44,045 bases of DNA, taken from contig CAJADV010000404.1 in NCBI GenBank assembly GCA_903938575.1, positions 1 to 44,045 on the forward strand. The letters are read 5' to 3'. Position 1 is the first letter of the stretch. Each line of letters begins with the position of its first letter. Below are positions 23,823-35,828 of the stretch, piece by piece. A model generated the notes under the pieces. It searched no databases and had not been told where the DNA came from. It saw only the letters and a list, made by a program, of their open reading frames with translations. Made by a program: the position numbers and the translations under genes. This stretch comes from an uncultured Gammaproteobacteria bacterium (GTDB taxonomy: Bacteria > Pseudomonadota > Gammaproteobacteria > Pseudomonadales > UBA5518).

Positions 23823-24470
23823 TCACGCGCTGCGCAGTGGTGCGAGCAGCACACTCACGGTGGTTCCCCAGCCCGGTTCCGAGGCAATGCGTATGTGTCC
23901 GCCATGGGCTGCGGCGATGCGGCTCGCCGTGGCCAGCCCGAGCCCCATGCGCTGCGCCGGGTGGCGCTCCCGATGCGGCGGCGCGATGCTGCGGAAGGGC
24001 AGGCAGACTGTGCTGCCCTGTGCGGGGTCTATGCCGCATCCGTTGTCACGCAGGTACAGACTGCATCCCGGACGAGACCCGAGTTCCAGGCGTATCTCGG
24101 CGCGGTGCATGGCGTGGCGTATCGCGTTGTCGATCAATTCATGCAGGAGAATCTGCAGCATGGCCGCGTCTGCATGAATCACGCAGTGATCAGGATGTTC
24201 CACAACCACGGCGGGCGTGGCTGGTCGTAGCAGAGCGACGTTCTCGATGAACATGGCGATGAGGTCCAGCGGCTCCGGTGCGGGCGTCGTCGCTGCCTCG
24301 ACGTAGTGACAGAGCGAGCGCAGCAGAGGATCCCGGATGGTGCGTGTTTCTCGTCGCGGATACTCCTCGGCCCACTGCCGGAGCAGCTGCTCGAGGCGAT
24401 CGGCTCCGATCAGCTCCTGCGCCTGACTGCGCTCCGCGGCGTTCAGTGGGCAGAAATCCGCAGCCATCAC
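23823..24470 (-). CDS. Stand-alone histidine-kinase-type ATPase domain (no phosphoacceptor domain)
   Basis: A 215-residue protein made almost entirely of a GHKL/HATPase_c domain: N box HELIDNAIRHA, G1 box LRDNGCGID and G2 box MGLGLATASRIAAAHGGHI are intact, ending in a kinase-like GWGTTVSVLL. The first roughly 75 residues hold no recognisable H-box with phosphoacceptor His, no membrane helix and no sensor domain. No response regulator is encoded nearby. It could work with a separate phosphotransfer protein, act as an anti-sigma-type ATPase, or be a remnant of a full kinase. It starts 12 bases after the SRPBCC-SDR gene stop and is probably the last gene of the photo-oxidative operon. Adjacent ATGs at 24470 and 24467 are both usable. 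Confidence 0.82.
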   Translation of the reverse strand: MMAADFCPLNAAERSQAQELIGADRLEQLLRQWAEEYPRRETRTIRDPLLRSLCHYVEAATTPAPEPLDLIAMFIENVALLRPATPAVVVEHPDHCVIHADAAMLQILLHELIDNAIRHAMHRAEIRLELGSRPGCSLYLRDNGCGIDPAQGSTVCLPFRSIAPPHRERHPAQRMGLGLATASRIAAAHGGHIRIASEPGWGTTVSVLLAPLRSA

Positions 24471-24482
24471 GCCTTAGCCACC

Positions 24483-25913
24483 TCAGGACTTGCGCGGCGC
24501 GCGCCGTTTCGGGGTGGTCCCGGTCATCAGGTCTGCGAGGGCCTGGAGCAGGGCGGCGCGATCCTCGGGTGTCTCGCGTGTGGATGCGAACAGGTGGCTC
24601 GGGTGTGGTTCGCGATCGAGCCAGAAGGCACCGCTTTGCTGCGCCGCCTCGGTAGCCGCCGCGAGCCACACCACGGTGTCCGCGCCCTGTTCGGGCGTGC
24701 GCAGCAGCGGACGGGTCAGGCGCCGAAATGCGGGGAGCGCGGATGCCACACCCGGTGTGTCGGCCCAGCCCGGATGCATCGCGTTTACCACGATGTTTTC
24801 CTCACGCCAGCGTTTGGCCCACTCTTCGGTGAGGATCATCAGTCCGCGCTTCGCGCGCGCATAGGCTACCGATCCGGAATAGGTGCCGCGTTCGCTCTGC
24901 AGGTCGCGCACGCGAATGCGCTGGGAAAGCATGCCTCCCGATAGCACGTTCACCACGCGTGAACGTTGGGCCGCTGCAAGCAGGGGGTGCAAGCGCTCGG
25001 TGAGGATGAAAGGACCCAGCAACAGCAGGGCAAAGCTTTTTTCGAGATTTTCAGCGGTGGTCTGGCGAGGGTTGAAGAGGGCGCCGGCGTTGTTGATAAG
25101 CGCGTCAATGGGATGGCCCGCGCGCAGTAATCGCTTGGCCAGCGCATGCACGTCTGCCATCAGGCTGAGATCGGCGGTCTCGGTGCCGATGCGTGCGTTG
25201 CCTGTTGCGGCGCGGAGCGTGGCCGCCACGGACTTCAGCTTGGCCGACTCGCGGCCGACCAGCGTGAGCTTCGCGCCCATCGAGGCGAGTGATCTGGACG
25301 CAGCGAGACCTATACCCGAGGTAGCGCCCGTCAGCACGATATGCCGGTCACCGAGCCACGCCGAGACGGGCTTCCAGCGTCGTCGCGCTCGCTGGTAACC
25401 GAAGCGGGTGAAGCCCAGCATCCCCGGGAGGATCAGCCGGTCAGCCAGGGCGTGGCGCTCCGCATCCGCGGGTGCGGTATAGGCGTCTTCCAGCGCACGG
25501 CGCAGCCCCTGCATGGCGCTCTTGCCGACGCCCTGCATGACGCCGGGAAAGCGTCTGGAAAGCGCGGCAAGCGAGGCCGGGAAACTGAAGCGTGCGATGT
25601 AACGGATGCGGGTGCCGTCAGGCGTGGCCTCGAAGAGGATTTCCTCGCGGGCCGAGAAAAAACGGGATTCAACCTGCATCAGCATCTGCGCGAGGGGCCT
25701 GAACTCGATCACGGTGTAGTGCAGGGAGAAGCCCGCTTTCATGTCGACGCGATATTCGCTGCCCACCCCCGGAGGCCCGGCCGAGAGTGTGGTGGCGCTG
25801 CGCACGCCGGGATCCCATTGCTCGATACGGGAGAAATCCGCAACGTAGGCGAATGTCTCCTGCAGTGCGCGCGGGACCTCGATGGATTCGTCCAGAACGA
25901 TCTCATGGCTCAT
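24483..25913 (-). CDS. SRPBCC (START-like) domain fused to short-chain dehydrogenase
   Basis: A 476-residue cytoplasmic protein. Residues 1-150 are a polyketide-cyclase/START-like lipid-binding domain (IEVPRALQETFAYVADFSRIEQWDPG, YTVIEFRPLAQMLMQVES). After a linker, residues about 185-450 are a classical SDR: TGATSGIGLAASR (NAD(P) loop), INNAGALF, catalytic Ser in VLSGG and YARAKRG (Tyr-x3-Lys), then PGWADTPGV. The dehydrogenase half resembles retinol-dehydrogenase/DHRS12-like enzymes acting on hydrophobic substrates. The fusion suggests that the START-like domain presents a lipid to the active site. It overlaps the upstream secreted-protein gene by 4 bases (ATGA), placing it in the RpoE-linked operon with cyclopropane synthase. 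Confidence 0.88.
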   Translation of the reverse strand: MSHEIVLDESIEVPRALQETFAYVADFSRIEQWDPGVRSATTLSAGPPGVGSEYRVDMKAGFSLHYTVIEFRPLAQMLMQVESRFFSAREEILFEATPDGTRIRYIARFSFPASLAALSRRFPGVMQGVGKSAMQGLRRALEDAYTAPADAERHALADRLILPGMLGFTRFGYQRARRRWKPVSAWLGDRHIVLTGATSGIGLAASRSLASMGAKLTLVGRESAKLKSVAATLRAATGNARIGTETADLSLMADVHALAKRLLRAGHPIDALINNAGALFNPRQTTAENLEKSFALLLLGPFILTERLHPLLAAAQRSRVVNVLSGGMLSQRIRVRDLQSERGTYSGSVAYARAKRGLMILTEEWAKRWREENIVVNAMHPGWADTPGVASALPAFRRLTRPLLRTPEQGADTVVWLAAATEAAQQSGAFWLDREPHPSHLFASTRETPEDRAALLQALADLMTGTTPKRRAPRKS

Positions 25914-26683
25914 GTGTTTTGCCGCGGACAGGTAGATGACGAGTTCACGAGAACGGTTGCCGGCGCTGTTTCAGCCGGTTTTCCCGCCTCCGAGTCCAGT
26001 GTGTGTCGGTGGTAGCGGATTTCGACGTCGAGGTCACCGCCCTCGCCGTCGCTGATGTTGGAGGGGCCGCGATAGAGCAGCAATTCCCCGCTCTCGCTGT
26101 AGCCAAGCAGGATTCCCGAGGTGAAAAGTCTGAAGAGCCCCTGCACGGGTTCGACGCGGAACCAGTCAGCGATTCCGCTTTCCGCGATCGCGTTTTCCTC
26201 GCGCCGTATGCGCATGTCGATAGTGGACAGCCTTGCCGGAAGGGCGAACTCGAAGCCTATGGTGTCGCCGGCCAGCAAACTGTCCCGGTGTTTGCGGACG
26301 AAGCGGTCAAAGCCCGAGCTTGCGACCAGCGTGCCCTCGGGCCGTATGGCGGTCTCACGTCCATCCTTCACCAGCATGTAATCCTCGCCTGCCCAATACC
26401 CTCCCACCACCTTGCCGCTGCGAAGGTCGTGCTGCTCCCATGCCGGGGCGCTGTCGCTGCAGGTGTAGTCGAGTTGCTTTTTGGCAAGTAGCACGCCATT
26501 CAGGTCGCTGTAGCTGATGCGGTGATGTAATGCGGAGATCTCGTGGGTTTCGTGATAGATCTCGGTGCGCTCGGGAAGCCGCAGCGCGATGCCCTCTACG
26601 ACCTCGGTGCCGGCCAGAGCGATGGTGCTTGCGGTGATCATCAAGACAACCGCGGCCAGTGAAGCGCAAAGCCGGTGTTTCAT
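25910..26683 (-). CDS. Secreted protein of unknown function in the photo-oxidative operon
   Basis: A 257-residue protein with a Sec signal peptide (MKHRLCASLAAVVLMITASTIALAG, cleavage after ALA at about residue 24). The mature part is predicted to be mostly beta strands (HHRISYSDLNGVLLAKKQLDY, RFVRKHRDSLLAGDTIGFEF, DLDVEIRYHRHTL). It has two cysteines, one in YTCSD and one near the C-terminus. I do not recognise the family. It overlaps the upstream DUF2878 gene and the downstream SRPBCC-SDR gene by 4 bases each, so it is translated as part of the block. A periplasmic role in lipid handling would fit the neighbours but is inference only. Confidence 0.75.
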   Translation of the reverse strand: MKHRLCASLAAVVLMITASTIALAGTEVVEGIALRLPERTEIYHETHEISALHHRISYSDLNGVLLAKKQLDYTCSDSAPAWEQHDLRSGKVVGGYWAGEDYMLVKDGRETAIRPEGTLVASSGFDRFVRKHRDSLLAGDTIGFEFALPARLSTIDMRIRREENAIAESGIADWFRVEPVQGLFRLFTSGILLGYSESGELLLYRGPSNISDGEGGDLDVEIRYHRHTLDSEAGKPAETAPATVLVNSSSTCPRQNT

Positions 26684-27192
26684 GAGGAGACGCCTTCTGC
26701 GTTGCTACCACGCGCCAGACGTGCAAGCAGCGGCAGCAGCACAGCCCAAGCAGGCGCCATCGCGAGGGCGACGATGCTGTCCGGGTGCGTCGTTTCCGCG
26801 GCACCCAGGCGCATACCGGCGATGTAGCTGAGCGGCCCGCTGAGTGCCCCCAGAGCAGCTGCCAGCAACAGCCTGTCCTGCAGGAAGGCAAGCGAGCGGA
26901 ACAGGGTTCCCGCGAACATCAGCCACAGCACCACCAGCCAGCCGGGCGTGGTCCAGACAAGCTGTCCCTTGAAGGTCAGCACACCCAGAAGCTGCCAGCC
27001 GAGATCCATCGCAAGCCCGATCGCCGCGCAAAGCAGGATCATTCGCCACTCGCGGGTCGAACGCCGACCGGGCCAGGTCACCTGCAGCGGCACCAGAATC
27101 ACGGCAGCGAGCAGGGCACCCCGATTGCCACCGGCGACGCAACAGAGCCATCCCAATTGGAACACGATTCCATCGCGCAGCGCCGGGTTCAT
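26680..27192 (-). CDS. DUF2878 integral membrane protein
   Basis: A 170-residue inner-membrane protein with four to five hydrophobic helices (FQLGWLCCVAGG, LLAAVILVPLQV, MILLCAAIGLAMDLGWQLLG, LVVLWLMFAGTLFRSLAFL, VALAMAPAWAVLLPLLARL). The GWLCCVAGG start and AIGLAMDLGWQLLGVL pattern fit DUF2878, a family of unknown function often located beside cyclopropane synthase, DUF1365 and photolyase genes. ATG 27192 is set by the ATGA overlap with the photolyase stop. It overlaps the secreted-protein gene downstream by 4 bases as well. A link to membrane lipid modification is inferred from neighbours. Confidence 0.82.
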   Translation of the reverse strand: MNPALRDGIVFQLGWLCCVAGGNRGALLAAVILVPLQVTWPGRRSTREWRMILLCAAIGLAMDLGWQLLGVLTFKGQLVWTTPGWLVVLWLMFAGTLFRSLAFLQDRLLLAAALGALSGPLSYIAGMRLGAAETTHPDSIVALAMAPAWAVLLPLLARLARGSNAEGVSS

Positions 27193-28616
27193 CCGCGGGC
27201 GTCCTCGGCGGCTTCGATGCCCGCGTTGCGGAACGCGCTCATCACGCGTTCGCGGGCTGCACGGGTGTCGAGCATGGGCGCCGGATAGCCGGCGGCCAGG
27301 AGCTCCGGGTGGCCTGGCTTCAACAGCGCCTTGCGGCTGCAGTTGGCGATCTCCGGCAGGTATTCCCTCACGAATACGCCCTCCGAATCGAAGCGTACCG
27401 CCTGGCGTTCCGGACTCAGGATCCGGAAGTAGGGCGCCGCGTCGGTACCCGTCGATGCCGACCACTGCCAGCCGCCGTTGTTCGCGGCCAGCTCGCCGTC
27501 CACCAGCTCTTCCATGAAACAGCGCTCGCCGCGACGCCAGTCGATCAGCAGATGTTTTGACAGGAACATGCCTGCCAGCATTCGCAGCCGGTTGTGCATC
27601 CATCCCGTTGCAGACAGTTGACGCATGGCGGCGTCCACCAGCGGAAATCCGGTAAGGCCGTCGCGCCAGCGGTTGAAGTCAGCCTCGTCCTGTCGCCAGG
27701 AGATCCGGTCGGTGTCAGGGCGGAACGGGCGATTCCGGCTCACGGCCGGAAAGGCTTGCAGGATGTGCGAGTAGAACTCGCGCCAGATCAGTTCGTTGAT
27801 CCAGATCTGTGCCCCCTGGCTGCCGCTGTCCCACTCGCCGTGATTCGCCGCCAACGCAGCCTGCAGGCAGCGCCGTACCGAAAGTACGCCGACCGCGAGA
27901 TAGGGAGACAGGCGGGAGGTGCCATCCAGCGCGGGGATGTCGCGATCAACGTTGTAGCGATGAATCCTGTCGGTGCAGAAATCCGCCAGACGGTCGTGCG
28001 CGGCCTCCTCGCCAACGGGCCACCAAACAGGGTCAAGTGTTGCATCCGGCGGCTCCCATGCGGGAAGCGGCGGTGGTTCCACGGGCGGGCCAGCCTCCGG
28101 CGCCGACATGCAGCTCGGGCTGTCGACGCGCACCAATTCGAGCCAGGCGCGACGGAACGGCGAATAGACCTTGAAGGCCGCGCCTTCGCGGGTGCGCACA
28201 CTCCCCGGCGGCAGCAGGCAATAATCCTGCAGCAGCCGCCATCCGATACCGGCTCCCGCGAGTGCCGCTGCAACGCGCACATCACGCTCGGTCTCGTCTG
28301 CGCCGTACTCGGCGCTGGCGATGACACAGGAGCCGTGACGCTCGCGCGCGAAGTCGAGCAGTGCTTGCCCGGCATCACTGAAACGCGGTGCGCGCAGCAC
28401 CCAGAGCTCGATACCGCGCCGCGCCAGCGCCGCGCGCAGCGCGAGCACATGGCGCCAGACGAACTGCTGCTTGCGCGCCCCCCAGTCGTGGCGCTGCCAC
28501 TGTGCATCGGCGAGCAGAAACAGCCCGATCACGCGCTCGCCGGTGGCACAGGCCGCTGACAGTGCCGCGTTGTCATCGCAGCGCAGATCCGAACGGAACC
28601 AGACGATGGTGCTCAT
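27189..28616 (-). CDS. phrB: Deoxyribodipyrimidine photolyase (CPD class I)
   Basis: A 475-residue flavoprotein that uses blue light to split cyclobutane pyrimidine dimers. The N-terminal alpha/beta antenna-binding domain begins TIVWFRSDLRCDDNAAL. The helical FAD domain contains RLSPYLAVGVLSVR, INELIWREFY, GWMHNRLRMLAGMFLSKHLLIDWR and NNGGWQWSASTGTDAAPYFRI. The last segment carries the conserved Asn and Trp near the flavin, and tryptophans for the electron-transfer chain are present in the expected motifs. It overlaps the cyclopropane-synthase gene upstream and the DUF2878 gene downstream by 4 bases each. The operon has an ECF-type promoter divergent from rpoE-chrR, so light/singlet-oxygen control is likely. 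Confidence 0.95.
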   Translation of the reverse strand: MSTIVWFRSDLRCDDNAALSAACATGERVIGLFLLADAQWQRHDWGARKQQFVWRHVLALRAALARRGIELWVLRAPRFSDAGQALLDFARERHGSCVIASAEYGADETERDVRVAAALAGAGIGWRLLQDYCLLPPGSVRTREGAAFKVYSPFRRAWLELVRVDSPSCMSAPEAGPPVEPPPLPAWEPPDATLDPVWWPVGEEAAHDRLADFCTDRIHRYNVDRDIPALDGTSRLSPYLAVGVLSVRRCLQAALAANHGEWDSGSQGAQIWINELIWREFYSHILQAFPAVSRNRPFRPDTDRISWRQDEADFNRWRDGLTGFPLVDAAMRQLSATGWMHNRLRMLAGMFLSKHLLIDWRRGERCFMEELVDGELAANNGGWQWSASTGTDAAPYFRILSPERQAVRFDSEGVFVREYLPEIANCSRKALLKPGHPELLAAGYPAPMLDTRAARERVMSAFRNAGIEAAEDARG

Positions 28617-29878
28617 GGGCTGGCCGACGGACGCCAGTCTGGCTTGGCGAACAGGAACTGCGCCGTGCTGATCGCCCGCTCACGGAAGCCGCCCTCGCAG
28701 TACGCGAAGTAGTAATCCCAGAGACGCACGAAGTCCTCGCTGTAGCCGAGACTGCGGATTTTTTGAACGCCGGCGCTGAAACGCTGGCGCCACGCCTCGA
28801 GGGTGCGCGCGTAGTCCTGCGTGATATCGCGGAGATCCAGCAGTTGCATGTCGCTGCGCTGTGCGACTTGCTTCAGGATTTCGGCGGTGCAGGGCAGAAA
28901 GCCACCGGGAAAGATGTAACGCTGGATGAAGTCCACGTTACCCAGGGCGCGACTGTAGCGCTGGTCTGGAATGAGGATCGACTGCAGCACCATCAATCCT
29001 TCGGGCTTCAGCAGCTTGCTGCAGGTCTCGAAGTAGGCGGGTAGGTAGCTGTGGCCGACAGCCTCGATCATCTCGATGGAAACCAGCTTGTCGAACTGCC
29101 CCTCGAGGTCACGGTAGTCTTTGAGTAGTACTGTCACGCGGTCCGCGAGCCCGGCGGCCGCGATGCGCTTCAGGGCATATTCCTGCTGTTCGCGCGAGAT
29201 GGTGGTCGTGGTCACGCGGCAGCCGTAGCGGCTCGCGGCATGCAGTGCCATGCCACCCCAGCCGGTGCCGATTTCCACCAGGTGGTCGCTCGTTTTCAGT
29301 TCGAGTTTCTGGCAAATGCGGTCCAGCTTGGCGAGCGAGGCTTCCTCTAGTGAGGCGCGGTCGTGCGGGAACAGCGCCGAGGAATACATCATGGTCGGAT
29401 CGAGGAACTGCTCGAACATCTCGTTGCCGAGGTCGTAGTGAGCCTCGATGTTGCGCCGTGAACCATCGCGGCTGTTGCGCTTAAGTGTGTGCAGGATGCG
29501 CAGCGCCATGCGATCGAAAAAAGACGATGCATCATCCAGTCGATTCAGTACCTCGACGTTTGCGGCCATGAGCCGGGTCAGCTGCACGAGATCGGGGCTG
29601 CTCCATTGGCCTCGGACCCAGGACTCTGCCGCTCCCACGCTGCCACTGGCCGCAAGCGCTTGGTAGAAGCCTTCATGGTGCACGCGGATATGGGCGTCCA
29701 GTTCGGGACGTGCTTGTCCGGAGCCGGCTACGTGGCTGCCATCGGCATCCTCTATGACCAGGCGTCCCGCAGGCAGTGCAGCGATACGTTTGAGCATGCG
29801 ATCCCGTGTGATGCGGGCTGCCCAGCCCGGCTTGGCAACGCCGACATCTTGTTGGAATTCGCGGGCTGCAGAGTTCAT
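28613..29878 (-). CDS. cfa: Cyclopropane-fatty-acyl-phospholipid synthase family methyltransferase
   Basis: A 421-residue SAM-dependent enzyme that adds a methylene (or methyl) group across cis double bonds of membrane phospholipid acyl chains. Signatures seen are HYDLGNEMFEQFLDPTMMYS, the SAM loop VEIGTGWGGMALHAASRYG, IEMIEAVGHSYLP and the C-terminal YCEGGFRER segment equivalent to the conserved Cys region of E. coli Cfa. Within the broader family, relatives make methylated or furan fatty acids in alphaproteobacteria under RpoE control, so the exact product is open. Its ATG shares one base with the DUF1365 stop (TGATG), and its stop overlaps the photolyase start, indicating translational coupling. 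Confidence 0.92.
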   Translation of the reverse strand: MNSAAREFQQDVGVAKPGWAARITRDRMLKRIAALPAGRLVIEDADGSHVAGSGQARPELDAHIRVHHEGFYQALAASGSVGAAESWVRGQWSSPDLVQLTRLMAANVEVLNRLDDASSFFDRMALRILHTLKRNSRDGSRRNIEAHYDLGNEMFEQFLDPTMMYSSALFPHDRASLEEASLAKLDRICQKLELKTSDHLVEIGTGWGGMALHAASRYGCRVTTTTISREQQEYALKRIAAAGLADRVTVLLKDYRDLEGQFDKLVSIEMIEAVGHSYLPAYFETCSKLLKPEGLMVLQSILIPDQRYSRALGNVDFIQRYIFPGGFLPCTAEILKQVAQRSDMQLLDLRDITQDYARTLEAWRQRFSAGVQKIRSLGYSEDFVRLWDYYFAYCEGGFRERAISTAQFLFAKPDWRPSASP

Positions 29879-30651
29879 CAGAGGGTCTCCTTGTCAGTCG
29901 TCAGCGGTGCGCTTGGGTGAGCATGGAAAGGAACGCGTTTAAGGAAAAGCCGGAGCGCCTCCCAGTAGATCGCGCCGGCGATTTTAAGGCTGATCAGCGG
30001 GAATCGAAGCAGCAGCAGCCTCGCCAAGGCCGCGCGGTTGATGGGCTCACGACGCAGGCTCAGAGTGGCATCGAAAACCCGGCTGCCATTCATATGGTTC
30101 TCGAGGTGAATGCCGAGATGTTCCTGCGGCGCGCGGCTGGTCCATCGGTAGCGCATGGTCATCGGGTTGAAGGGTGATACGTGCATCTGCTTGTCGAAGC
30201 TCGCATGGAGCAGGCTGGAGCCTTGCTGCGCGGGCAACACGTAGGCGTGATGCTCGCCCCAGGGGGTGTTGGTGACCTCGGCCACCACGGCTGCCAGTGT
30301 CGTGCCATCGGCTTCGTAGCAGTAGTAGCAGGCGATCGGGTTCATCAGCACGCCGAAGTAGCGCAGGTTTGCGAGCAGCATCACGGGGCCTGTGGGCTGC
30401 TCGCCGGTACGCTGGGCCACGAGTTCGCGCACGCAGTCGGCCAGGGGGCGGGCCGGGTCACCCAGGAAATCGCGCCTGCGGAACCAGCCCGGCGCCGGTT
30501 TTTTCGATGACCACAGCCAGGATCCACGGAACAGGGTGTCGAGTTTTTCGAGATCGAGAAAAAGCATGCAGAGTTGGTAACGGAACGCGTGGCCTGTGGG
30601 CGTGAATCGCCGGTGCCGTACCTGTCCGGTGTAGATCGCCGGGGCAATCAC
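29878..30651 (-). CDS. DUF1365 family protein
   Basis: A protein of about 257 residues. Family features are YTGQVRHRRFTPTGHAFRY near the N-terminus, then LRYFGVLMNPIACYYCY, VAEVTNTPWGEHHAYVL, DKQMHVSPFNPMTMRYRW and ISLKIAGAIYWEALRLFLKR at the end. DUF1365 proteins are nearly always encoded between a flavin amine oxidase and a Cfa-like methyltransferase, exactly as here, and are thought to act in fatty-acid modification; no activity is established to my knowledge. The start used is GTG 30651, which gives a 4-base GTGA overlap with the amine-oxidase stop; GTG 30654 is equally possible. Confidence 0.88.
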   Translation of the reverse strand: MIAPAIYTGQVRHRRFTPTGHAFRYQLCMLFLDLEKLDTLFRGSWLWSSKKPAPGWFRRRDFLGDPARPLADCVRELVAQRTGEQPTGPVMLLANLRYFGVLMNPIACYYCYEADGTTLAAVVAEVTNTPWGEHHAYVLPAQQGSSLLHASFDKQMHVSPFNPMTMRYRWTSRAPQEHLGIHLENHMNGSRVFDATLSLRREPINRAALARLLLLRFPLISLKIAGAIYWEALRLFLKRVPFHAHPSAPLTTDKETL

Positions 30652-31898
30652 CACTGCACTCCGAGTTCCTGCGCGACGCGAACGGCACTGCTCACGCCGT
30701 CCTCGTGGAAGCCGTTGCCCCACCAGGCCCCGCAATACCAGGTCCTGTCGGTGCCGTTTATCTCGCGCCAGCGCTGCTGGGCGCTGACTGCCTCGACGCT
30801 GTACACAGGGTGGCTATAGCGGAAGCGTCCCAGAATTTTCGAAGAATCGATGTTTACGCTGTCGTTCAGCGTTACACAGAAGGTGTGCGGCGACTCGATG
30901 CGCTGCAGGATGTTCATGTCGTAGCTGAGAACGGGCAGTTCATCGGCGCCGTCGCGTATGCGGTAGTTCCAGCTCGACCAAGCAAGCCGGCGCCGCGGCA
31001 GCACGGAGGTGTCGTTGTGCAGGATCACGTCATTGGCTCGATACGCAATGGCCCCAAGCACACCCTGTTCCGCGGCGGAAGGTGTCTCCAGCAAGGATAA
31101 CGATTGGTCGCTGTGGCAGGCCAGCACCAGCTGGTCAAAGCGGCCTGCCTCGCCTGCCCGGGTCTGCACGTCCACGCCATCCTGGTCGCGCCGGATGCGC
31201 GTCACGGGATCCGCAGTGCGCATGGAGCCGGCGAAGGCGCGGGTGATCGGTTCGAGATAGCTCCTCGATCCACCGACCAGCGTGCGCCACTGGGGCCGGT
31301 TGGTGACGGCCAGCAGACCGTGGTTGCGGAAGAAGCGAATGAAGAACTCCACCGGGAAAGCATCCATGGCGCGCGTTCCGGATGACCAGATGGCCGCCCC
31401 CATGGGCACCAGGTACCAGTCGCGAAATTCGGACGAATACCCCCCGGCCCGCAGGTAGTCACCGAGTTGCATGCCGGGGCTGAGGCGATTTTCATCCAGA
31501 TCCTGTTGTGATTCCCGGTTGAACCGGAGGATATCCCGCAGCATCCGCCAGTAGCCGGGACGCAGGAGGTTGGCGCGCTGGGCAAACAGGGTGTTGAGGT
31601 TCGAGCCCGCATACTCCAGGCCAGCCGTGTCATGGCTGACGCTGAACGTCATGTCGGTGGGCTGTGAGTTAACGCCAAGCTCCGCCAAGAGGCGAATGAA
31701 GTTGGGGTAGGTGCGATCGTTATACACAATGAACCCGGTGTCGATGGCGTAATCCCGACCATCCAGACGTACGTCCACGGTGGCGGTATGGCCTCCGATT
31801 CTGGACTCGGACTCAAACACCACGACCTCATGGCGGCGGGCGAGCAGCCATGCTGCAGTCAGCCCGGCGATGCCCGAGCCGACGATGGCGATTCTCAT
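30648..31898 (-). CDS. FAD-dependent amine-oxidase-family protein
   Basis: A 416-residue flavoprotein. It begins with the FAD dinucleotide-binding motif IAIVGSGIAGLTAAWLLA and continues ESRIGGHTATVDV and DTGFIVYNDRTYPNF. The body fits the flavin-containing amine oxidoreductase/NAD(P)-binding family. It is the first gene of the eight-gene operon divergent from rpoE-chrR, with a candidate ECF promoter 41-70 bases upstream of its ATG. In the alphaproteobacterial pathway for methylated and furan fatty acids, a flavin enzyme of this general type desaturates methylated acyl chains. An acyl-chain desaturase role is therefore plausible but unproven. It is not likely to act on amines. Confidence 0.88.
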   Translation of the reverse strand: MRIAIVGSGIAGLTAAWLLARRHEVVVFESESRIGGHTATVDVRLDGRDYAIDTGFIVYNDRTYPNFIRLLAELGVNSQPTDMTFSVSHDTAGLEYAGSNLNTLFAQRANLLRPGYWRMLRDILRFNRESQQDLDENRLSPGMQLGDYLRAGGYSSEFRDWYLVPMGAAIWSSGTRAMDAFPVEFFIRFFRNHGLLAVTNRPQWRTLVGGSRSYLEPITRAFAGSMRTADPVTRIRRDQDGVDVQTRAGEAGRFDQLVLACHSDQSLSLLETPSAAEQGVLGAIAYRANDVILHNDTSVLPRRRLAWSSWNYRIRDGADELPVLSYDMNILQRIESPHTFCVTLNDSVNIDSSKILGRFRYSHPVYSVEAVSAQQRWREINGTDRTWYCGAWWGNGFHEDGVSSAVRVAQELGVQW

Positions 31899-31938
31899 GG
31901 CTTTCCCTTGGTTTTCGGTCTTATGTACGGCCCGGCGG

Positions 31939-31968
31939 GTGTACGGAGTTTGCGGGTGTGCGGATCAA
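31939..31968 (-). promoter_or_regulatory. ECF-sigma (RpoE/ChrR-type) promoter for the amine oxidase-photolyase operon
   Basis: Minus strand: TTGATCC (31968-31962), 16-base spacer, CGTACAC (31945-31939). The -35 core TGATCC matches the one published for Rhodobacter RpoE targets. The same two elements recur on the plus strand ahead of the sigma gene. The ATG of the first operon gene is about 40 bases downstream. Confidence 0.7.
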
Positions 31969-32037
31969 CCTCCCGAAACAGGACTGTTGCCCGGCGGAGC
32001 CTGCTCCGCAAGGCTTTCGAAGCAATTCGGGGTGGTG

Positions 32038-32068
32038 TTGATCCAGAGAGGGGCGTTGCATCGTACAC
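32038..32068 (+). promoter_or_regulatory. ECF-sigma (RpoE/ChrR-type) autoregulatory promoter of rpoE-chrR
   Basis: Plus strand: TTGATCC (32038-32044), 17-base spacer, CGTACAC (32062-32068). Both heptamers are identical to those on the opposite strand at 31968-31939. Placement upstream of the sigma-factor gene, with a leader of about 100 bases, points to autoregulation by the encoded sigma factor. Confidence 0.7.
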
Positions 32069-32175
32069 AGGCCAGATACATAGGAAGCACCGGAATGCGT
32101 GGCAAGAGCAGCGTACTGCGATTTCCTCCTCGCCCGGGTTTACAGCCCGGTGCTACCCGTCCATCATTGACCGGG

Positions 32176-32754
32176 ATGAATCAAGTTGTTGCCTTTGAGC
32201 GTGAGCTGGACCCTTGGACCCTTCGACTCCAAGCGGTTGCTCGCGATCGTGACCGTCAAGCCTATGGCGAACTTTTCCGCCACTTCGCGCCACTTTTAAA
32301 GTCCTTCGCGCTCTCCACCTCCGGCATGTCCTCCAACGCGCTCGCCGAGGAGCTTGTGCAAGAGGTAATGCTGAAGATCTGGAACCGCGCCGCGACCTTT
32401 GATGCGGCCAAGGCCAGTGCCACCACCTGGATCTACACACTGGCGCGCAACTGCCGGATTGACCTGTTGCGGCGCAAGTTCCGCGTGCAGGAAGAGGTCG
32501 ACGTCGACGAGTTGTGGGACTTCGGAACGAATCCCGATGAGCTTCACGACGAGCTCTACCAGAAACGTATCGAAGTCGAGATTCGCGACTCGCTTCGAGC
32601 GCTGCCTATCGAGCAGCGTCAGATCATCGCGAAAGTCTACATGGAGGGAAAATCGCACAGCGAGGTCGCGGAGGAGCTCAGTCTTCCCCTAGGCACCGTG
32701 AAGTCGCGTATCCGTCTTGCCATGAGTAAACTCAAGGTGATGCTGCAACGATGA
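32176..32754 (+). CDS. rpoE: ECF sigma factor, RpoE of the ChrR-linked group
   Basis: A 192-residue ECF sigma factor with only regions 2 and 4. Region 2 is seen in YGELFRHFAPLLKSFA and EELVQEVMLKIWNRAATFD through TWIYTLARNCRIDLLRRK. Region 4 is LRALPIEQRQIIAKVYMEG followed by the helix-turn-helix SHSEVAEELSLPLGTVKSRI. It directs RNA polymerase to stress promoters once freed from its anti-sigma partner. ATG 32176 is chosen because the frame upstream has no sigma-like sequence. The stop overlaps the chrR start (ATGA). The ChrR-type partner identifies it as the singlet-oxygen-responsive type studied in Rhodobacter sphaeroides. Its probable promoters lie on both strands of the upstream gap. Confidence 0.93.
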   Translation: MNQVVAFERELDPWTLRLQAVARDRDRQAYGELFRHFAPLLKSFALSTSGMSSNALAEELVQEVMLKIWNRAATFDAAKASATTWIYTLARNCRIDLLRRKFRVQEEVDVDELWDFGTNPDELHDELYQKRIEVEIRDSLRALPIEQRQIIAKVYMEGKSHSEVAEELSLPLGTVKSRIRLAMSKLKVMLQR

Positions 32755-33416
32755 ATCCAAAGTCTACCCCGCAATTCCATCCCGATCAGTTCATGCTGGC
32801 TGACTATGCGGCGGGCACTTTGCCCGGTGCAGTGGCGTTGCCTTTGGTGGTGCATCTCGAGCACTGCGGGCAATGTCGCTCCGAGACGCAGCAGCTGGAG
32901 GAAGTCGGCGCCCGGTTGTTCGAGGGCCTCGATCCCGTGCCCGTGAATGAGGATGCACTGGAGCAATTGATTCTTCGTCTCGAAGACGACAGTGTGCAAC
33001 CGGCGCTCGGTGCCATTCCTGTGCGTTCCGGACTTCCCCGCGTTCTGCAGGGGTTGGTGCCCGATGGACTCGATGCCTTGGCGTGGAAGCGGATTGGTTC
33101 GCTCCGGTCGTCCCGTTTGCATTTCGGTGATCCTCGCCGGGAGGTCGCGCTCCAGCACATTTCCGCTGGTGGCAAGGTGCCGCAACACGGTCACCGGGGT
33201 ACCGAGATCACCGTGGTGATTCACGGTAGTTTCTCTGACCAGGACGGCTGCTACCGGCCTGGTGATTTCCTGATGCGAGGTCCTGATGACGCACACCGCC
33301 CGGTTGCAGCACAGGATGGCGATTGCCTGTGCCTAGCCGTGCTTGACGCGCCACTCAGGTTCCAGGGGCTGCTGGGTCGTATCGTCAACCCGTTCCTGAA
33401 AATCCGTCCCCGCTGA
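32751..33416 (+). CDS. chrR: Zinc-binding anti-sigma factor ChrR
   Basis: A 221-residue two-domain protein. The N-terminal anti-sigma domain carries His10 and the HxxxCxxC set His35, Cys39, Cys42 that binds zinc in ChrR. The C-terminal cupin domain keeps a second metal set, seen in VPQHGHRGTEIT (two His and a Glu) and DDAHRP (His). In R. sphaeroides the cupin domain is needed for release of RpoE on singlet-oxygen exposure. All ligands are visible here, so the sensor should be functional. It overlaps rpoE by 4 bases, giving stoichiometric expression. It is convergent with imuB across 29 bases. Confidence 0.93.
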   Translation: MNPKSTPQFHPDQFMLADYAAGTLPGAVALPLVVHLEHCGQCRSETQQLEEVGARLFEGLDPVPVNEDALEQLILRLEDDSVQPALGAIPVRSGLPRVLQGLVPDGLDALAWKRIGSLRSSRLHFGDPRREVALQHISAGGKVPQHGHRGTEITVVIHGSFSDQDGCYRPGDFLMRGPDDAHRPVAAQDGDCLCLAVLDAPLRFQGLLGRIVNPFLKIRPR

Positions 33417-33445: not shown

Positions 33446-34900
33446 TCAGCCGAAGAGCCCCTGGGCGAACCACTCGCCACTTGCTCTTTCGCGGAACACC
33501 CATAGCAGTGTGCCGCTGCCATGTCTGCCGATGAAATAGTCGCGTCGCTGCGGCTCACCCCACCAATTGCTGTCGATGCGCTCTGGCCCCGAGATCAGGT
33601 CTATCGGGCCATTCCAATCCGGTTGTGCCTCGGTTCCCCCGAGTCTTGTGGGTTGCCGTAACAGCCAGCAGGGCCGTTGCATCCAGGTGCTGGTGCCTGC
33701 ATGCGCGGCGGGTTCGTGTACGCCGTTCCAGGCTTGCTCGGGCAGGGTTGCATCCGCGAGGTACAGACCGTGTACCCGGTCCATGCCGAGCCGCAGTCGC
33801 AGGCGATCCAGCAGTAACCGTTCGGCCTCGCCACCGTCGCTCGACTCCTCTGCAAAGAGGCTGTTGATCTTTCCCTCCAGCGCTGCTGTTTCCAGGCAGG
33901 CAAGTCCGAGGGATTCCGTGGCCTCTGCAAGGCGCAGTCCCTCCAGCGCGAGTCGCGTGAGGTCCAGTAACGCATCGGTGCGATGCTGCTGTAGCGAGCA
34001 CGCCACAGGCAGTATCCGAAGTTCGCCGTGTGCCACACCCAATCGCCACTCGAGCCGCTGGCAGTAGAGCTGGCGGCGCTCCAGAAAACGCCCCATGTCG
34101 GCGAGAAGCCGCCGGGCCGGGAACAACAGCATGTTGGCGTTGCAGACCGGCTCAAGGAAGTGGAGGGTGCTTTCGAAGCGATCGCGTGGGCGGTGCGTGC
34201 AACGCGGGTCATGGCTATGGCCTGCGAGCCGCTGGAGGTAATCCGGGAATGCCTTCCCGAAGCGTCGGCCCAGTGCCGCCCGCGGCAGCGCGAGCAACTC
34301 GCCTATCCGTGTGAAGCCCATGCGCTGCATCGTGAGTTGCTGCTTTTCGGGCGCAGCGAGCAGTTCTACAGGCAGTTTCCCCAGCATTTTCTGGAAGGCA
34401 TCGGGCTCGTTTTGGAGTTGCCATGGCGGTAATGCCACGGCGTTGCAGGGCAGGGCACGAGCCATCAACTCTGCTCCTGATGGCGTGGGTCCCAGTCCGC
34501 AGCACACCTTGTGCCGGCGTGCCGCCAGATCTGCCTCCATCACGCCGAGCAGCGCAGCCTCACCGTGGAACAGCCGCAGGCTTGCGCCTATTTCGAGCAG
34601 CAGGCGATCGGGAGGTGAGACGCAGACCTGCGAGCTGAAGTTGCAGGCCCAGTCGGCGAGCGCGATCAGTGTGGCGGCTTCGTGTGCAGGTTCGCGCTCG
34701 CGCAGCCTGAGCGAGCCTGAGAGCGCCTGTGCCGTGCTCGCCGACATGCCTGGACGAATGCCGAGCGCTGCAGCGGAGTCGTTTGCTGCGCAGACGCGGT
34801 GCCGTTCCGTCACGGCAAGCGGTGGATCCGTGTCGGGTGGCCCTGCAAGGCTGAACACCTCCAGCGGCAACTGCGTGAAATGCAGGCACAACCAGAGCAT
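33446..34900 (-). CDS. imuB: ImuB, catalytically inactive Y-family polymerase homologue
   Basis: A 484-residue protein of the DNA polymerase Y family. The N-terminal palm starts LWLCLHFTQLPLEVF, where true Y-family polymerases have a metal-binding Asp, so the catalytic site is lost as in other ImuB proteins. Fingers/thumb-like segments (IRPGMSASTAQALSG, MQRMGFTRIGELLALPRAALGRRFG) and a little-finger region (RRLLADMGRFLERRQLYCQRLEW) follow. ImuB bridges the beta clamp, ImuA and the error-prone polymerase DnaE2 during SOS mutagenesis. It starts 5 bases after imuA stops. No dnaE2 follows, since the next gene is the convergent chrR, so the polymerase must be encoded elsewhere or be absent. Confidence 0.9.
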   Translation of the reverse strand: MLWLCLHFTQLPLEVFSLAGPPDTDPPLAVTERHRVCAANDSAAALGIRPGMSASTAQALSGSLRLREREPAHEAATLIALADWACNFSSQVCVSPPDRLLLEIGASLRLFHGEAALLGVMEADLAARRHKVCCGLGPTPSGAELMARALPCNAVALPPWQLQNEPDAFQKMLGKLPVELLAAPEKQQLTMQRMGFTRIGELLALPRAALGRRFGKAFPDYLQRLAGHSHDPRCTHRPRDRFESTLHFLEPVCNANMLLFPARRLLADMGRFLERRQLYCQRLEWRLGVAHGELRILPVACSLQQHRTDALLDLTRLALEGLRLAEATESLGLACLETAALEGKINSLFAEESSDGGEAERLLLDRLRLRLGMDRVHGLYLADATLPEQAWNGVHEPAAHAGTSTWMQRPCWLLRQPTRLGGTEAQPDWNGPIDLISGPERIDSNWWGEPQRRDYFIGRHGSGTLLWVFRERASGEWFAQGLFG

Positions 34901-34905
34901 GGCGG

Positions 34906-35688
34906 TCAGTGCAGGGCTGGCTGCTGCGGCCCGGATGCGGGCGGCGGGTTGTGTGTGTCCATGGGCAGCTCCGCTTCATCATCACGCTTGACGGTGTTCC
35001 CGCGTACGATCACCGGCATCAGTGCCGGCATTACCCGGTGTGCCAACAGCTGGGAGGGGCGACCGAGCAGAATGCGCTGTCCGGCGCGCCCACCGCGCTG
35101 TTTGAGAATCTCGAGGGTCAGTCCCGCGGTTTCGTGCTGGAGCTGGATCCGCAAGGCTGCCGGCGATACCAGGCTTGCGCCGGCGCAATCCCGGAACAGG
35201 AAAACCGGCCCACGCGCATGACGCGCGGCAATCTGCAGGCGGCGCAGGGCGGTGTAACCCGCGGCGCCGCGACCATCAGGCAACCAGCCGAGCAGGCACC
35301 CGCAGGCGCCAGAGCGCAGTATCTGCTCCATACTCCAGAACAGCTCCCCGGGTTGTTCCGGCGTGAGCACCACCAGTCGTTCCAGCCTGAGGCCTAGCGC
35401 ATGCAGGGCGGGTGCGTAGGGGATGTGGGGCGGTGCTACAAAAAAGATCCGCTGAACCCCGTGTGAGAGGTGTGCAAGCGCGGGTGCGATCAGCTGCATC
35501 TCGCCAATACCACAGCTCGTTGCCAGCAGTTCGGTCAAGGCAGCGCGGGGCCAGCCACCCTGATGCAGCGCCGCATCGAGCGCCGGGTGCCCGCTTGGCA
35601 GGCAGTGGTGTGGCTCGTTGGCGGGCGCATGGCGTCCGGATTGCCAGATGTCGGGGCGGGCGAGGATGCTGAGCAGGGAATCGGACAT
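34906..35688 (-). CDS. imuA: ImuA, RecA-like accessory protein of SOS translesion synthesis
   Basis: A 260-residue RecA/SulA-related protein. Family features are LARPDIWQSGRH, LPSGHPALDAALHQGGWPRAALTELLA and the Walker-B-like strand GCLLGWLPDG. ImuA works with ImuB and DnaE2 in damage-induced mutagenesis. ATG 35688 (MSDSLLSI) or ATG 35694 is the start. A perfect LexA box ends only 3-9 bases upstream, so the transcript has little or no leader and no clear ribosome site. The gene may be translated from a nearly leaderless mRNA. It is divergent from the dUTPase gene, and imuB follows after 5 bases. Confidence 0.9.
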   Translation of the reverse strand: MSDSLLSILARPDIWQSGRHAPANEPHHCLPSGHPALDAALHQGGWPRAALTELLATSCGIGEMQLIAPALAHLSHGVQRIFFVAPPHIPYAPALHALGLRLERLVVLTPEQPGELFWSMEQILRSGACGCLLGWLPDGRGAAGYTALRRLQIAARHARGPVFLFRDCAGASLVSPAALRIQLQHETAGLTLEILKQRGGRAGQRILLGRPSQLLAHRVMPALMPVIVRGNTVKRDDEAELPMDTHNPPPASGPQQPALH

Positions 35689-35697
35689 ACGCATTGA

Positions 35698-35717
35698 TAC
35701 TGTAAATACATACAGTA
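35698..35717. promoter_or_regulatory. LexA (SOS) box controlling imuA-imuB
   Basis: TACTGTAAATACATACAGTA: a perfect CTGT-N8-ACAG core with the flanking TA/TA of the gammaproteobacterial LexA consensus, palindromic except in the central bases. It lies immediately upstream of the imuA start, where bound LexA would block the promoter. The divergent dUTPase start is 112 bases away and may or may not be affected. Confidence 0.93.
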
Positions 35718-35828
35718 GTTTCTTGCCATTGCCTCTGCTTGTAAAGGAGCTTGTTCCTGGCTGTGTCCAGGCCTTCTGCAACCTACAATGGGCTTCGTCG
35801 CCAATTTCCCCTGCCGAGGACGCTACCC

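Follow-up and report, generated by a model that had tools for sequence, protein, structure and literature searches.

A divergent pair of probable ECF11 sigmaE-type promoters between rpoE-chrR and a predicted furan-fatty-acid and photolyase operon in an uncultured gammaproteobacterium

The core sigmaE regulon, known from the sigmaE-ChrR (ECF11) system of Rhodobacter sphaeroides and its relatives, includes a photolyase, a cfa-type methyltransferase and homologues of RSP1090/1091, and is linked to furan fatty acids (PMC6852236, PMC7380195). UfaD, UfaO and UfaM are furan-fatty-acid enzymes (PMC7380195), and ChrR turnover in R. sphaeroides requires furan fatty acids (PMC6852236). In this species, ufaD and ufaO belong to an operon with adjacent numbering (RSP1091-1087), and the GTP cyclohydrolase FolE2 is part of the RpoE regulon, as it is in R. 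capsulatus (PMC7074977). TGATCC-N16-CGTA is the already published ECF11 consensus, supported by induction data, in Pseudomonas syringae (PMC5507510), in which PSPTO_1043/1042 are rpoE-chrR and the targets include phrB, cfa, DUF1365 and amine-oxidase genes. Promoters of the same form, with mapped transcription starts, are known in Shewanella (PMC4336711), in which the RpoE2-ChrR system of S. oneidensis targets a periplasmic glutathione peroxidase gene and a phr-cfa operon.

The window analysed here, a stretch of 44,045 nucleotides from an uncultured gammaproteobacterium, carries a system that, judged by its protein families, zinc ligands and promoter, is ECF11 sigmaE-ChrR. As in R. sphaeroides, the sigma and anti-sigma factors belong to the ECF11 and ChrR families, eight zinc ligands are present and the promoter core is TGATCC. 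RpoE features Sigma70_r2 and r4_2 domains, and its best PDB match is the R. sphaeroides RpoE (2q1z_A, E 5e-35), followed by an entry at 2e-16. ChrR, with a zinc anti-sigma domain and a cupin domain, matches the solved R. sphaeroides complex (2z2s). The alignment keeps each of the eight zinc ligands given in PMC6852236, with H6, H31, C35, C38 / H141, H143, E147, H177 of 2z2s aligned to H, H, C, C / H, H, E, H. The features of the locus are reported in Table 1. Convergent to chrR are imuA-imuB-like error-prone repair genes (33446-35781, named by eye), which also adjoin chrR in genomes G001, G004 and G005.

Table 1. Features of the rpoE-chrR locus and of the divergent operon (window positions).
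Feature	Position	Strand	Basis
Final gene of the proposed operon of eight, encoding a histidine-kinase-like (HATPase_c) protein	23823..24470	minus	Pfam
Polyketide-cyclase-like (SRPBCC) domain and short-chain dehydrogenase fusion	24483..25913	minus	Pfam
Family-less gene, N-terminus signal-peptide-like	25910..26683	minus	conserved in G003, G004, G005
DUF2878 protein	26680..27192	minus	Pfam; order kept in G003, G004, G005
phr, class I DNA photolyase, close to E. coli 1dnp	27189..28616	minus	family and structure match
ufaM / cyclopropane-fatty-acid-synthase-family methyltransferase (CMAS)	28613..29878	minus	PF02353, E 5e-86
ufaO-like DUF1365 protein	29878..30657	minus	PF07103, E 3e-79; DUF1365 is the UfaO family (PMC7380195)
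ufaD-like FAD-dependent oxidoreductase (Amino_oxidase family), first operon gene	30648..31898	minus	Pfam; gene order as in PMC7380195
Predicted ECF11 sigmaE-type promoter of the divergent ufa/phr operon	31939..31968	minus	-35 TGATCC 31967-31962, N16, -10 CGTA 31945-31942
Predicted ECF11 sigmaE-type autoregulatory promoter of rpoE-chrR	32038..32068	plus	-35 TGATCC 32039-32044, N17, -10 CGTA 32062-32065
Likely ribosome-binding site (AGGAAG) for the long form of rpoE (ATG 32095)	32082..32087	plus	sequence; Shine-Dalgarno-like sequence at the same ATG in four relatives
rpoE, ECF11 sigma factor, long form with 27-residue N-terminal extension	32095..32754	plus	Pfam Sigma70_r2/r4; third-codon-position bias in extension
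TTTACA-N17-CATCAT, candidate sigma70-type promoter internal to the rpoE extension	32139..32167	plus	8 nt before in-frame ATG 32176
chrR, zinc-binding anti-sigma factor, start overlapping the rpoE stop	32751..33416	plus	TIGR02451 above cut-off; PDB 2z2s, E 9e-31

The gap between rpoE and ufaD is 196 bp long and hosts the two promoters, the -35 boxes of which are back to back, 71 bp apart. As reported in a preliminary description of this DNA, the heptamers TTGATCC and CGTACAC occur both on the minus strand (31968-31962 and 31945-31939, spacer N16) and on the plus strand (32038-32044 and 32062-32068, spacer N17), and the -35 core shared by the two promoters equals the TGATCC of Rhodobacter RpoE targets. 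The hexamers of the rpoE promoter are perfect, but the spacer is N17 rather than the prevailing N16. The window has two copies of the pattern TTGATCC-N14-20-CGTAC versus 0.01 expected from shuffles, and two copies occurred in 0/100 shuffles. The earlier claim that the window has no further copies extends to the entire genome, as a pattern search of all 4.36 Mb for TTGATCC-N15-18-CGTAC found none beyond the pair. Each of the four other genus members having the rpoE locus carries both promoters in the equivalent position, with spacer sequences that have diverged, which argues that the pair is more than a chance occurrence. In these four members the spacer is N16 on the ufaD side, as in the window, and also on the rpoE side, at which the window has N17.

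The eight leftward genes are tightly packed. The Pfam domains and the order of the first three genes correspond to those of PMC7380195, and the unit is better described as a predicted furan-fatty-acid (UfaD-UfaO-UfaM) and photolyase operon. The ufaM-like protein falls below the NCBIfam cut-offs for cyclopropane synthases, a result compatible with both UfaM and an ordinary cyclopropane synthase. No Pfam or NCBIfam match was obtained for the sixth gene. G004 and G005 retain all eight genes in this order. Seven were recovered in G003, all but the eighth (HATPase_c). The preliminary description assigned the operon to the singlet-oxygen regulon. Its membership of the predicted RpoE regulon is supported: the known core-regulon genes ufaD-ufaO-ufaM-phr lie under a predicted N16 ECF11 promoter. 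The three furan-fatty-acid genes have the same order as RPA2571-2569 (ufaD-ufaO-ufaM) of Rhodopseudomonas palustris; in contrast to that cluster, they are followed by the photolyase gene and four more genes, and their enzymatic roles are predicted from sequence. Unlike in R. sphaeroides, ufaM and phr are within the same divergent operon. Moreover, whereas the P. syringae phrB-cfa locus lies away from rpoE and the Shewanella phr-cfa operon does not adjoin rpoE2, the corresponding pair in the window is a divergent neighbour of rpoE.

The locus very likely encodes a ChrR-controlled, autoregulated ECF11 switch, in which a divergent sigmaE promoter pair forms a two-way promoter region. ChrR would keep RpoE inactive until an oxidant, either singlet oxygen or an organic hydroperoxide in studied relatives, causes RpoE release. 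RNA polymerase carrying RpoE would then read TGATCC-N16/17-CGTA on both strands of the gap, producing more RpoE and ChrR rightward (autoregulation) and, leftward, the UfaD-UfaO-UfaM enzymes and the photolyase. Given the need for furan fatty acids in ChrR turnover in R. sphaeroides, the left arm would also act back on ChrR and RpoE through these lipids. At least two further promoters, serving folE and a periplasmic glutathione peroxidase gene, would complete a small regulon. The natural inducer may be another oxidant (organic hydroperoxide, peroxide or superoxide) and not mainly singlet oxygen. This alternative takes the promoter pair as real, is compatible with the sigmaE-ChrR switch and differs from it in the input alone. 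Related systems answer to, or protect from, organic hydroperoxides, H2O2 or superoxide (PMC5507510, PMC4336711, PMC11832516), but a regulon that includes photolyase and furan-fatty-acid genes is consistent with light and singlet oxygen, and we assign the alternative an appreciable probability that falls short of even.

The preliminary description took the two heptamers as the likely sigma recognition motif. The sites do correspond to ECF11 sigmaE-type promoters, but the heptamers are overfitted to two sites, as became evident from the comparison of 110 rpoE loci (30 from the order and 80 from named genomes), many of which come from related genomes, so that the counts are not independent. chrR follows rpoE in 109 of the 110 loci, and ufaD is divergent from rpoE in 49, 28 of which feature both promoters. 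On the rpoE side, exact TGATCC/CGTA promoters (n = 61) have spacers of N16 (57), N17 (3) or N15 (1); on the divergent side, spacers are N16 (38) or N15 (2). The base preceding TGATCC and the bases following CGTA vary. From the predominance of N16 and the variable flanking bases, the recognition core read from these loci is TGATCC-N16-CGTA, shorter than TTGATCC/CGTACAC, with N17 apparently tolerated. In two-promoter loci with a divergent ufaD, the back-to-back -35 boxes are spaced by 1 to 71 bp. At L026, L113 and L139, no more than 1-2 bp separate the two divergent sigmaE -35 boxes, and the promoters should compete for polymerase.

A genome scan with the strict TTGATCC/CGTAC pattern, proposed earlier, retrieves both promoters of the pair but misses the likely targets folE and the periplasmic glutathione peroxidase gene. 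An N16 promoter precedes folE (GTP cyclohydrolase I) in 5/5 genus genomes having the system, and no such site was found upstream of folE in the examined genomes lacking ECF11. The site (TGATCC-N16-CGTA, L079:3963-3988, minus strand) is located between a WS/DGAT acyltransferase-like gene and folE, and the TGA of its TGATCC is supplied by the stop codon of the former. In contrast to the FolE2 of R. sphaeroides, the enzyme is of the PF01227 type. TGATCC-N17-CGTA is found upstream of the probable periplasmic glutathione peroxidase gene (L047 / G000:C464:2879-2905), the product of which begins with a signal-peptide-like sequence. This promoter is also present in 5/5 genus genomes having the system, with N17 in four; the spacer is N17 in G001, G004 and G005, and N16 in G003, G006 and G051. 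The N17 form distinguishes the genus from S. oneidensis. The genome thus likely has at least four RpoE promoters (rpoE-chrR, ufa-phr, folE and glutathione peroxidase), a minimum number, as the enumeration took only exact, and not variant, -35 elements.

A further TGATCC-N16-CGTA site at the bioA start (G000:C319:8038; L079:8038-8063, plus strand), present in four genus genomes, points antisense into tesA and overlaps the conserved bioA start and ribosome-site sequence, and is probably a coding coincidence. The G000:C11 and C543 sites were rejected, being inside long ORFs. No counterpart was seen in the genus for the C22 site, before a response-regulator ORF, or the C443 site, before a ybgC-like ORF. 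G001 and G005 (L083, L084) have in common a TGATCC-N16-CGTA upstream of a cob(I)alamin adenosyltransferase-like gene (identified by eye); no copy of this site (G001:C155, G005:C87) was detected in the genome of the window.

The N17 spacer at rpoE, which also sets the window apart from R. sphaeroides, may be either a single-base change particular to this species or an error of the assembly, the species being represented here by one assembly. The promoter may be weak, since N17 is rare at rpoE. One alternative is that the leftward N16 promoter is the sole working RpoE promoter, the N17 promoter having decayed, with rpoE-chrR transcribed from the internal sigma70-like promoter and autoregulation lost in this species. 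It draws on the rarity of N17 (3/61 exact rpoE-side promoters) and on the conservation in the genus of a sigma70-like promoter within the leader. It is nevertheless improbable: the promoter retains two perfect hexamers, a Marinomonas and a Pseudidiomarina likewise have N17 at rpoE, and four species keep N17 at the glutathione peroxidase gene. The last observation weakens the notion that N17 denotes a dead promoter and suggests that N17 is tolerated and need not inactivate the rpoE promoter.

The looser pattern TGATCC-N15-18-CGTA occurs 21 times in the genome, mostly within ORFs. Genome-wide, the ratio of N16 to N17 exact copies is 212:128 in genomes with the system versus 84:78, a weak enrichment; as N16 is only modestly above N17, most exact matches elsewhere are due to chance. 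A reversed-pattern control was unsuitable, as the reversed pattern includes the rare word CCTAGT. Despite these 21 mostly intragenic copies, it is exceedingly unlikely that the heptamers are chance resemblances or a repeated site for another regulator, a view already contradicted by conservation, since position, orientation and spacing are kept upstream of rpoE and ufaD in dozens of genomes and the sites match promoters whose starts were mapped.

The promoter pair is mostly ordinary and the switch type well known; the noteworthy part is the architecture of the rpoE start. In the window's genus, an ATG preceded by a Shine-Dalgarno-like sequence lies about 27 residues ahead of the conserved RpoE core. 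The extension is probably translated, as differences between sister pairs fall mostly at third codon positions (18/31, p = 0.004). The candidate sigma70-type promoter inside it is the sole sigma70-like match in 31850-32260. Its TTTACA-N17-CATCAT elements are invariant in four genomes (12/12 positions vs 28/66 outside, p = 0.0001; third codon positions 4/4 vs 6/22, p = 0.014), although these p-values are optimistic, the elements having been picked after the alignment was viewed. A fifth genome, G003, keeps TTTACA-N17 but has GATCAT. Because the predicted promoter ends so close to the in-frame ATG, transcripts starting from it would be leaderless; it is a possible basal promoter.

Alpha- and Betaproteobacteria show a different arrangement. 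Among their loci with a recognisable promoter (within L125-L168, outside Gammaproteobacteria), an in-frame ATG is found 8-9 nt past CGTA in 22/28, versus 0.4 expected from the background rate, whereas the divergent ufaD mostly starts 24-70 nt past CGTA. This points to leaderless rpoE mRNAs encoding an N-terminal extension. R. sphaeroides differs from the window, in which the rpoE message is predicted to have a normal leader, with a candidate internal promoter. Tentatively, and with less confidence than we would place in its negation, we propose that selection acts on the way in which the ECF11 rpoE mRNA begins. The rpoE messages made from the sigmaE promoter of Alpha- and Betaproteobacteria would be leaderless, begin at the ATG 8-9 nt past CGTA and encode a 30-60-residue N-terminal extension, with a normal leader for the divergent ufaD. 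In the window's genus, the sigmaE promoter would direct a leadered message for long RpoE, and the internal sigma70-type promoter a leaderless message for short RpoE, so that the form of the sigma factor would differ between stressed and unstressed cells. The pattern appears to be unreported, as a literature search, the coverage of which excluded most subscription journals, returned no relevant paper joining 'leaderless' with chrR.

With this locus, the sigmaE-ChrR family gains a further gammaproteobacterial lineage, the regulon of which is open to gene-by-gene verification. The corrected search motif, TGATCC-N16/17-CGTA, recovers two targets that the strict pattern misses. If leaderless rpoE proves true, an autoregulated stress sigma factor would be translated by a route other than that of its regulon.
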